The notes beneath the pieces are model-generated. The model was not told where the DNA came from and did not search any database. It worked only from the letters and a program-made list of their open reading frames with translations. Of a stretch of 64,000 nucleotides of DNA, positions 62,008 to 64,000 are shown in pieces. The DNA is from Xylanimonas oleitrophica (GTDB lineage Bacteria > Actinomycetota > Actinomycetes > Actinomycetales > Cellulomonadaceae): positions 248,001-312,000 of the forward strand of contig NZ_QKWH01000004.1 in NCBI RefSeq assembly GCF_003244315.1, read 5' to 3'. Position 1 is the first letter of the stretch, and each line of letters opens with the position of its first letter. The translations under genes and the position numbers were made by a program.

Positions 62008-62080
62008 TGGCTCCGAGGGGCGTCGATCCCCTGACCTCACGATTTTCAGTCGTGCGCTCTACCAACTGAGCTACAGAGCC
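62008..62080 (-). tRNA. tRNA-Phe (GAA)
   Basis: 73 nt. Acceptor GGCTCTG/CGGAGCC, D-arm TAGCTCAGTTGGTAGAGC, anticodon loop ACTGAAAAT with GAA, T-arm GGGGATCGACGCCCC. CCA is not fully encoded. Last gene of a Glu-Asp-Phe operon. Confidence 0.96.
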
Positions 62081-62131
62081 TCGGACACGAACGCCCGGGC
62101 GCCGTTTCCGACGTTCCGGGCGCTTGGTGCG

Positions 62132-62205
62132 CGACCCTGACGGGACTTGAACCCGCGACCTCCGCCGTGACAGGGCGGCGCGCTAACCAACTGCGCTACA
62201 GGGCC
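62132..62205 (-). tRNA. tRNA-Asp (GTC)
   Basis: 74 nt. Acceptor GGCCCTG/CAGGGTC, D-arm TAGCGCAGTTGGTTAGCGC, anticodon loop with GTC inside CTGTCAC, T-arm CGGGTTCAAGTCCCG, discriminator G as usual for tRNA-Asp. Confidence 0.96.
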
Positions 62206-62334
62206 TTGACCCGTTGCGATCTCTCGCTCTCGGGCCGGGTAGAAGCGTACATCACTGCGGAGGTAAACCTGAAATCGACCTCTGACCTGCGACGACGCCC
62301 CTGGTTGCCGACGACCTCGCGGTGCGCCGACCAG

Positions 62335-62407
62335 TACCCCCAACGGGATTCGAACCCGTGTACCCGCCGTGAAAGGGCGGTGTCCTAGGCCGCTAGACGA
62401 TGGGGGC
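62335..62407 (-). tRNA. tRNA-Glu (TTC)
   Basis: 73 nt. Acceptor GCCCCCA/TGGGGGT, D-arm CGTCTAGCGGCCTAGGAC, anticodon loop CTTTCAC with TTC, T-arm CGGGTTCGAATCCCG. First gene of the operon; its 5' end is 31 nt from the divergent metallopeptidase start. Confidence 0.96.
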
Positions 62408-62438
62408 CGGGACGGTCAGCCAGCATACCTGGGAGAGG

Positions 62439-62801
62439 ATGGACCCCGTGGTGGAGATGTCGCGCGAGGAGTTCGAGGCAGCGGTGTCGGACGCGCTCGA
62501 CACGGTGCCCCCCGACCTGACGGCCCAGATGGACAACGTCGTCGTGCTCGTCGAGGACGACGCGCCCGCCGAGGACCCCGGGCTGCTCGGGCTCTACGAG
62601 GGAGTGCCGCTCACCGAGCGCGACCTCGGGTGGGCCGCCGGAGCCCTGCCCGACCGCATCACGATCTTCCGCAACCCCACCCTCGCCATCTGCGACACCC
62701 GCGACGACGTCGTCGAGGAGGTCGCCATCACCGTCGTCCACGAGATCGCGCACCACTTCGGCATCGACGACGAGCGGCTGCACGAGCTCGGCTGGGCCTG
62801 A
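62439..62801 (+). CDS. Zincin-like metallopeptidase family protein
   Basis: 120 residues. It carries the compact zincin motif H-E-I-A-H-H-F-G-I-D-D (VVHEIAHHFGIDDERLHELGW), preceded by ERDLGWAAGALPDRITIFRNP. This matches the small actinobacterial family annotated as metallopeptidase (PF06262-like). The substrate is unknown. ATG 62439 follows GGGAGAGG; an upstream ATG at 62400 would overlap tRNA-Glu and is rejected. Confidence 0.87.
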   Translation: MDPVVEMSREEFEAAVSDALDTVPPDLTAQMDNVVVLVEDDAPAEDPGLLGLYEGVPLTERDLGWAAGALPDRITIFRNPTLAICDTRDDVVEEVAITVVHEIAHHFGIDDERLHELGWA

Positions 62802-62820
62802 GACCCGGCCACCCGAGCCC

Positions 62821-63165
62821 CTGCGCTGCGCGGGCGGCGACGGCCTCGTGCCTCGGCCTGCACCGCCCGCTGCGCTCCGGCTCAGCCCTGGGGGCTGGTG
62901 GTCGGGCTGAGCCTGCGCTGCGCGGGCGGCGACGGCCTCGTGCCTCGGCCTGCACCGCCCGCTGCGCTCCGGCTCAGCCCTGGGGGCTGGTGGTCGGGCT
63001 GAGCCTGCGCTGCGCGGGCGGCGACGGCCTCGTGCCTCGGCCTGCACCGCCCGCTGCGCTCCGGCTCAGCCCTGGGGGCTGGTGGTCGGGCTGAGCCTGC
63101 GCTGCGCGGGCGGCGACGGCCTCGTGCCTCGGCCTGCACCGCCCGCTGCGCTCCGGCTCAGCCCT
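62821..63165. repeat. Perfect 92-bp tandem repeat, 3.75 copies
   Basis: Copies start at 62821, 62913, 63005 and 63097; the first three are identical over 92 bp and the fourth is identical for 69 bp. Each complete unit contains GGCTCAGCCC and GGGCTGAGCC 15 nt apart, an inverted repeat. The last copy includes the galE stop codon. It fills the gap between the convergent metallopeptidase and galE genes. No sequence change between copies indicates recent or continuing amplification. Confidence 0.97.
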
Positions 63166-64000
63166 CCGGGTACCCGTCGGGGTTCTGCGACTGCCACCGC
63201 CACGTGTCCGCGCACATGTCGTCGATCGTGCGGGTGGCGCGCCAGCCCAGCTCCTTCTCCGCACGGGACGGGTCGGCGTACGAGGCCGGCAGGTCGCCGG
63301 GGCGGCGCGGGCCGATCTCATAGGGCAGCTCCCGCCCCACGGCGCGCTCGAAGGCGTGCAGGAGCTGCAGCACGGACGTGCCGGTCCCGGTGCCGAGGTT
63401 GAACGCGCGGGTGCGGTGCTCCATCCGGTCCAGGTGCTCGAGCGCGGCGACGTGCCCGGCGGCCAGGTCCTCCACGTGGATGTAGTCCCGCTCGCCCGTG
63501 CCGTCCACGGTGGGGTAGTCGTCGCCGAACACCGTCAGCCTCTCGCGACGTCCCACGGCCACCTGCGAGAGGTACGGCATGAGGTTGTTGGGGATGCCGG
63601 AGGGGTCCTCGCCGATGCGGCCCGAGGCGTGCGCGCCCACGGGGTTGAAGTAGCGCAGCAGCGCCACCTTCCAACCGTCGTTCACGGCGGCGACGTCGGT
63701 GAGGATCCGCTCGATCATCACCTTCGTCTGCCCGTACGGGTTGGAGGAGTCCAGGTGCTCCCAGTCCTCCTGGTAGGGGACGGGGGCCTTCTCGCCGTAG
63801 ACGGTCGCGGAGGAGGAGAACACGAAGCGGCTCACGCCGTGGCGCAGCATGGCCTCGACGAGCGACAGGGTGCTGTCGATGTTGTTGCGGTAGTACTCCG
63901 CGGGCTTGGCGACCGACTCGCCCACCGCCTTGAGGCCGGCGAAGTGGATCACCGCGTCCACCGGCTCGGCGGCGAAGAGGGCATCGGTGCGGGCGGTGTC
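63158..64000 (-). CDS. galE: UDP-glucose 4-epimerase, N-terminus beyond window
   Basis: The C-terminal 280 residues of an extended SDR. Landmarks are VIHFAGLKAVGESV, FSSSATVYGEKAPVPYQE, the catalytic Tyr-x3-Lys in SNPYGQTKVMIE, LRYFNPVGAHASGRIGEDP, GTGERDYIHVEDLA and FNLGTGTGTSVLQL. It interconverts UDP-glucose and UDP-galactose. The Rossmann start lies past position 64000. The stop codon lies inside the fourth copy of the 92-bp repeat, so the repeat array starts at the very end of this gene. Confidence 0.95.
   Translation of the reverse strand, partial: DTARTDALFAAEPVDAVIHFAGLKAVGESVAKPAEYYRNNIDSTLSLVEAMLRHGVSRFVFSSSATVYGEKAPVPYQEDWEHLDSSNPYGQTKVMIERILTDVAAVNDGWKVALLRYFNPVGAHASGRIGEDPSGIPNNLMPYLSQVAVGRRERLTVFGDDYPTVDGTGERDYIHVEDLAAGHVAALEHLDRMEHRTRAFNLGTGTGTSVLQLLHAFERAVGRELPYEIGPRRPGDLPASYADPSRAEKELGWRATRTIDDMCADTWRWQSQNPDGYPEG

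Follow-up and report, generated by a model that had tools for sequence, protein, structure and literature searches.

A perfect 92-bp tandem array at the galE stop codon of Xylanimonas oleitrophica belongs to a dispersed hairpin family and is probably a locally amplified small palindromic interspersed element

Mycobacterial MIRUs are tandem units of 40-100 bp that lie at gene junctions in gene orientation and overlap stop codons; their copy number differs among strains, and they are not known to have large dyad symmetry. Integron attC sites are imperfect hairpins with conserved bulges and a variable tip, in which structure is conserved over sequence; the feet of the hairpin are formed by R'' and R' boxes that end in AAC / GTT. 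For the Rickettsia palindromic elements (RPEs), we know of no mobilizer. RPEs are described, in the part of PMC10969869 that deals with them, as palindromic repeats of ~150 bp that sit in frame inside unrelated genes, almost half of them being within ORFs. GTAG- and CGTC-tagged REPs are, in the corresponding sections of PMC3733652, small dispersed palindromes of 20-40 bp, mostly downstream of genes; their stems measure 8-9 bp, and one end bears a tag. According to the same sections, GTAG REP ends often supply a stop codon, and some REPs are found within genes for helicases or repair proteins; a dedicated transposase is apparently lacking for the CGTC class, which mostly carries a CCA-like tail at its end and occurs mainly as head-to-head dimers (PMC3733652).

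The locus compared here with these systems lies at the end of galE, within the window, i.e., the whole 64,000-nucleotide stretch of X. oleitrophica DNA that was analyzed (Table 1). Tandem Repeats Finder (TRF) identified a repeat of period 92, with 3.8 copies and a 100% match, at 62820-63165; an array that is perfect over 345 bp is far above chance. In the direction of galE, the first bases of the units are 63164, 63072, 62980, and 62888. The three 92-mers are identical, whereas the fourth unit matches them over 69 bases, to 62820, and then diverges from the repeat, which bears out the three full copies and one partial copy of the initial annotation, as well as its placement of the perfect tandem copies across the galE stop. 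Unit 1 is composed of, in order, the outer 5' arm GGGCTGAGCC, which includes the galE stop, the core, the 3' arm GGCTCAGCCC, the motif GACCA, and a spacer; its bases 5 to 7 are the galE TGA (63160-63158), which thereby falls within the outer stem. Partial unit 4 consists of the 5' arm and the core, without the remainder of the 3' arm and without GACCA. Three consecutive tRNA genes (Rfam RF00005) are present on the minus strand at 62008-62407, just past the metallopeptidase gene.

Table 1. Array units and flanking genes, in window coordinates
Feature	Position	Strand	Evidence
Unit 1, 92 bp	63073..63164	-	covariance-model match 63083-63168, 80.4 bits
Unit 2, same sequence as unit 1	62981..63072	-	model match 62991-63076
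Unit 3, same sequence as unit 1	62889..62980	-	model match 62899-62984
Partial unit 4	62820..62888	-	model match 62813-62885
galE stop TGA, in 5' arm of unit 1	63158..63160	-	
galE, UDP-glucose 4-epimerase	63158..64000, 5' end outside window	-	TIGR01179 E 1.8e-109, above cut-off; Pfam Epimerase
Zincin-like metallopeptidase, convergent neighbor of galE	62400..62801	+	Pfam PF06262 E 2.4e-33

The array is a member of a dispersed family found at many unrelated genes and is not, as had been assumed, a feature of galE. When compared with its own genome, the array region matched other places at 69-88% identity, with the top values on short pieces, and its DNA matched 125 of 200 genomes of the host family at E <= 0.001. 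A covariance model built from 26 aligned units detected 17 copies in this genome, at 8 places (with the same result for two models), and, at E <= 1e-4, matched 47 of 101 genomes of the family, from 15 of 25 genera, where the 17-copy and 47/101 figures are lower bounds, a part of the first-look candidates having been scored. Similarly, the top copy count, at least 44 in genome G026, is a lower bound, since 44 copies were recovered from 44 scored candidates. A sample of 149 genomes from the order gave matches in 8; seven of these belong to the family, and the remaining one, outside it, matched weakly (E 8.6e-5). Copies often stand in arrays or are trailed by partial copies, with TRF periods of mostly 88-96 and two odd arrays of periods 57 and 43. 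At L116 (G123), the array comprises 6.2 copies of 57-bp units that keep the arms and the stop position, with most of the core absent. A second subfamily, GGAGGTGCAG..GGAACCGCAGG, its arms often CGCCTGAGCC, was seen at L177, L182, L193, L313, and L328-L331; it is frequent in G026 and G006, and its copies are closely alike. In phage and plasmid collections, blastn gave no match with 270 bases; a 17-base pattern matched five viral contigs, but none of the stretches examined contained an element according to the model. The element family is apparently undescribed, and no publication on it was found in the open-licence literature, which was searched partly among the best-ranked matches only.

The copy number at galE is given as assembled and may be wrong, since the source assembly is a draft of 28 contigs. 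Comparable arrays are present in genomes of one or two contigs, with four (G033), three (G159), two (G048), and two (G009) model matches. Perfect copies in a draft assembly would also be left by an assembly artefact, or by a purely local slippage repeat at the galE hairpin that is unrelated to other copies; the same structured unit at many unrelated genes, in other species, and in single-contig genomes makes this explanation very improbable. Instead, we consider it probable that the array is a locally amplified small palindromic interspersed element, one that inserts in sense at gene 3' ends with the stop codon in its outer stem.

Each unit is predicted to form, on the galE strand, one hairpin of ~77 nt, in which GGGCTGAGCC and GGCTCAGCCC enclose a core of 57 and are followed by GACCA and the spacer. 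The inverted repeat GGGCTGAGCC/GGCTCAGCCC that the initial annotation had singled out is therefore present, but as the outer stem of this much longer hairpin rather than as the whole structure. Its further proposal, that RNA hairpins would form for either gene, holds insofar as the array is hairpin-forming, but the strands are not alike: in comparisons with shuffled sequences, the entire array folded with z -8.7 on the galE strand and z -3.1 on the opposite strand. A single unit with its tail folded at -72.2 kcal/mol (z -6.2) on the galE strand. Rfam gave no match across 62820-63165 at E up to 1.

In an alignment of 26 units, which were chosen for similarity in DNA sequence rather than for structure (L006, L097, L100, and L106 were left out before alignment A1 was built), the TGA is invariant at positions 9-11 and one common structure accounts for the units, with 96.0% of cells paired. 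Twelve of the 26 pairs are altered on both sides, giving a covariation score of 0.293 (mean of the shuffles, 0.107), and 0 of 500 shuffles matched any of five structure measures. On the gene-sense strand of this similarity-selected alignment, G-U pairs exceed A-C pairs (24 vs 9), with one fixed U-G pair excluded, and this U-G pair is nearly invariant, being found in 70 of 73 first copies. The element structure is directional, in the sense of the host gene; the excess of G-U over A-C suggests that the folded form is the sense strand, whether as RNA or as single-stranded DNA, and may point to selection acting on RNA or on this one strand of DNA.

The covarying, RNA-type structure in gene sense, the U-G pair, and the G-U excess are also what one would expect of the main rival to a mobile origin, namely a functional 3'-UTR RNA element (a terminator or an mRNA-stabilizing hairpin) that evolved and was retained at many genes, its arrays being neutral expansions. 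We regard this alternative as unlikely, although it deserves to be taken seriously. Several observations weigh against its terminator form: (i) at galE, the interval 62400-63400 contains 0 sites with a terminator-like hairpin and T-run, so that an intrinsic terminator was rejected at this locus; (ii) a separate inverted repeat follows the inositol-3-phosphate synthase array in G000 and G131, as judged by eye; (iii) by a rough frame call, neighboring genes are co-directional in 34 cases (one being a copy internal to HrpA), convergent in 32, and unclear in 5; and (iv) some next genes begin close after the repeat, at 15 bases (L005), 22 bases (L191 and L196), and 28 bases (L120).

The element holds a fixed position relative to the stop codon of its host gene. 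Of 39 places read in G020, G026, G033, G040, and G050, 33 have the stop codon of a GC3-rich frame at model offset 7-8, five have it at 13-31, and one has none (one sequence being counted twice). Because this first model includes the stop, a second model was built from the core only, with no arms and no stop codon, and run on G002, G006, and G099, genomes absent from both training alignments, where their genera were nonetheless represented by other species. Here, 43 of 52 places had a coding stop at -8..-4 relative to the core, as compared with 15 of 2080 random positions; the other nine comprise six with a coding stop at -3..+23 and three with none within reach, and three G099 places at contig edges were left out of the 52 scored. 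In XPB-type helicase genes of three genera (L129, L202, and L208), the element begins before the stop, such that it covers the codons for the last protein residues and contains the stop codon; the XPB-type assignment was tested at L129 only, by NF045503 and PF16203 on the last 98 residues.

The arms match the host gene. At 50 of the 52 core-only places, which were not chosen on their arms (L322 was set aside by choice and L361 by a length rule), the ten bases before and after the core were complementary at 8 or more of 10 positions in 44 cases, 22 of them perfectly, whereas shuffled pairings gave a mean of 12.8 and a maximum of 20 in 500; thus, the outer arm follows the host gene. The outer stem of first copies at 73 places was 95.7% paired, as against 69.3% (maximum 74.7%) with 3' arms swapped among places, but these rows were picked by a model that rewards pairing, which makes the 50-place test the fairer one. 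Two repeats of other loci (L104 and L199) were excluded from the duplication, outer-stem-pairing, and neighbor-direction counts, and L180, with the same sequence as L179, was excluded from the outer-stem-pairing and neighbor-direction counts and kept in those of stop offset, duplication, core identity, and arm asymmetry. In a comparison of how constant the two arms are in subfamily B (36 places), departures from the consensus fell in the 5' arm alone at 9 positions, in the 3' arm alone at 19, and in both at 42.

Past the last element copy, the end of the host gene frequently reappears in local alignments. The duplication score reached at least 9 in 46 of 72 places, as compared with 2 of 72 for DNA 200 bases further on; pairings with other places reached this score in 19.6% of 720 cases, a background that is raised by the shared TGAGCC motif. 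The length of the duplication varies among the 46 places, and a tandem duplication could look alike; several of the 26 places below the score end in longer partial copies. At L191 and L196, the 13 bases CAAGGAGTCCTGA lie on both sides of a single element, and the second copy retains AAGGAG ahead of the next gene, which starts 22 bases after the element. At L129, a 24-base duplication surrounds a single element.

One insertion-like case lies within a protein. In this genome, a gene for an HrpA-like RNA helicase contains two tandem 96-bp copies in frame (L003, G000:C25:12832-13015), with the reading frame open through the double copy. The two copies add 67 residues between positions 242 and 243, which are adjacent in HrpA of PDB 8po6, presumably the E. 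coli protein. A copy within a coding region argues against a 3'-UTR element.

Presence at orthologous genes is patchy. Among 80 galE relatives from named genomes, there was no model match at the stop and two matches elsewhere in the loci; hence the copies "fixed and diverged in relatives" that the initial annotation had set against recent expansion were not seen at galE. A galE 85% identical to that of the window (G033) has an element of another subfamily at its stop (L193). At rplI, 5 of 11 ends in one genus were unreadable and were dropped; by eye, the element is present in G050 and absent from the five other readable ends, and the second gene-end copy of G050 continues into TGAGGC, like the element-free ends of G009 and G089. 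The 80 galE relatives and the five of six readable rplI ends without the element speak against a retained 3'-UTR function. Recent local amplification, as initially proposed, is probable, and both presence and copy number vary between species at orthologous genes.

The gene for inositol-3-phosphate synthase (TIGR03450) carries the element at its stop in 13 of 30 loci, with none to about five copies per species and degraded element pieces at two further loci (L230 and L235). In some element-free loci the gene end is still doubled, as with GAGCGCTGACGCGCTGACC at L214, and coinciding match positions were found in six genomes besides the 30 loci (G039, G040, G059, G070, G092, and G099). At L212, L218, L226, L229, and L232, the hairpin tip is swapped for another GC hairpin, GGGCCCGGC..GCCGGGCCC; in G064 (L229), both tip types are present within one array. 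The element occurs in several genera at this gene, at XPB, and at a response regulator identified by eye, which could mean that these are old, retained, functional elements. Its occurrence at inositol-3-phosphate synthase in many genera favors the 3'-UTR alternative.

Core identities are consistent with more than one history. For the same gene in different genomes, they ranged from 0.56 to 0.93 in the pairs tried, and the medians were 0.86 within genomes (where G026 contributes 190 of 274 pairs) and 0.75 between genomes. Elements at the same gene in different genomes are not always each other's closest, and the core identities fit repeated arrival or within-genome homogenization as well as inheritance. 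In G026, L177 and L187 differ in their own gene ends and share the same spacer, the same second gene-end copy, and a core with one difference, a likeness expected if a unit moved recently. In genus g3, the one pair tried, L177 and the sister species G002, matched in the downstream part alone and thus provides no clean empty site.

We infer that the copies are insertions of a mobile element. Such an element would consist of the ~77 nt hairpin with a short tail of GACCA and spacer, living in one actinobacterial family, and would insert in sense at or right after the stop, where the host stop would join the outer stem. Its 3' arm may find the target by pairing with the gene end, or may be corrected later to match. 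Quasi-palindrome correction is a route by which one arm is corrected against the other. Tandem copies could arise later where the gene end is doubled, by slippage or by unequal exchange between its two copies, and the mobilizing enzyme would probably be supplied in trans. A more specific version, in which a stop-codon-seeking hairpin chooses its target by pairing of the 3' arm with the gene end, inserts as single-stranded DNA or RNA, and duplicates the gene end, is a tentative suggestion that we hold to be improbable as a whole. If this version were true, the host protein, and often the ribosome site of the next gene, would stay intact, and arms that change after imperfect insertions would lead to new target specificities.

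Two candidate agents were sought among the 101 family genomes. Movement by a Y1 (HUH) transposase of the same genome, as for REP/RAYT elements, would suit a palindromic, dispersed repeat that lies near gene 3' ends and at times in helicase genes, features shared with the tagged REPs as far as these are treated in PMC3733652. Yet Y1 transposase (PF01797; search controls positive in 5 of 14) was found in only 1 of 101 genomes (the non-carrier G074), whereas the element is found in 47; moreover, the hairpin is about twice the REP size (20-40 bp), copies run head to tail, and the outer stem varies by locus. A REP/RAYT element acting in cis is therefore largely refuted, and we give this explanation very little credence. 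Reverse transcriptase (RVT_1) was present in 8 of 101 genomes (G004, G015, G028, G031, G036, G061, G064, and G079), in 3 of the 47 carriers, and in none of the seven genomes with at least 20 copies; it was rejected as a common agent.

If the element is indeed mobile, it would amount to a class of bacterial interspersed repeat that seems not to have been described before, whose address, the stop codon, is exceptionally precise and for which the host gene supplies half of the outer stem. It would offer a testable case of small non-autonomous elements that spread without gene damage, as well as a test of how arms stay complementary at each site and of which trans enzyme moves the element. Strain typing in the family could also make use of the arrays as variable-number markers.

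Among the described systems, integron attC sites share with this element an imperfect hairpin, conserved bulges, a variable tip, and a structure that is kept rather than the sequence, but GTT / AAC core boxes were not seen by eye at the consensus hairpin feet. MIRUs, as they are commonly described, resemble it as tandem units of 40-100 bp (here with periods of 88-96), in stop overlap (here in 43 of 52 places), and in gene orientation, but differ in that large dyad symmetry is present here and not known from MIRUs. MITEs have constant terminal inverted repeats, whereas the outer arms here covary and differ by locus; the gene end doubled in 46 of 72 places would correspond to a MITE-type target-site duplication, except that its length is variable and tandem duplication could mimic it. 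An RPE-like insertion in frame is represented by one clear case, the HrpA-like gene, most copies being on stop codons; in contrast to RPEs as portrayed in the relevant part of PMC10969869, the present family sits at stop codons in most places read, with arms that match the host gene. With the REPs, in the sections of PMC3733652 on the tagged classes, it has in common a small dispersed palindrome that lies mostly downstream of genes. It departs from that account (PMC3733652) in its ~77-nt hairpin with the unpaired 3' tail GACCA in place of a 20-40 bp palindrome with a GTAG/CGTC tag, in its direct tandem arrays, in its outer-stem stop codon, and in its locus-specific arms; a Y1 (HUH) REP-associated transposase was found in 1 of 101 family genomes, and this one is not a carrier. 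We file the element as a variant of small palindromic interspersed repeats that, by lifestyle, stands between the tagged REPs, the RPEs, and the MIRUs.
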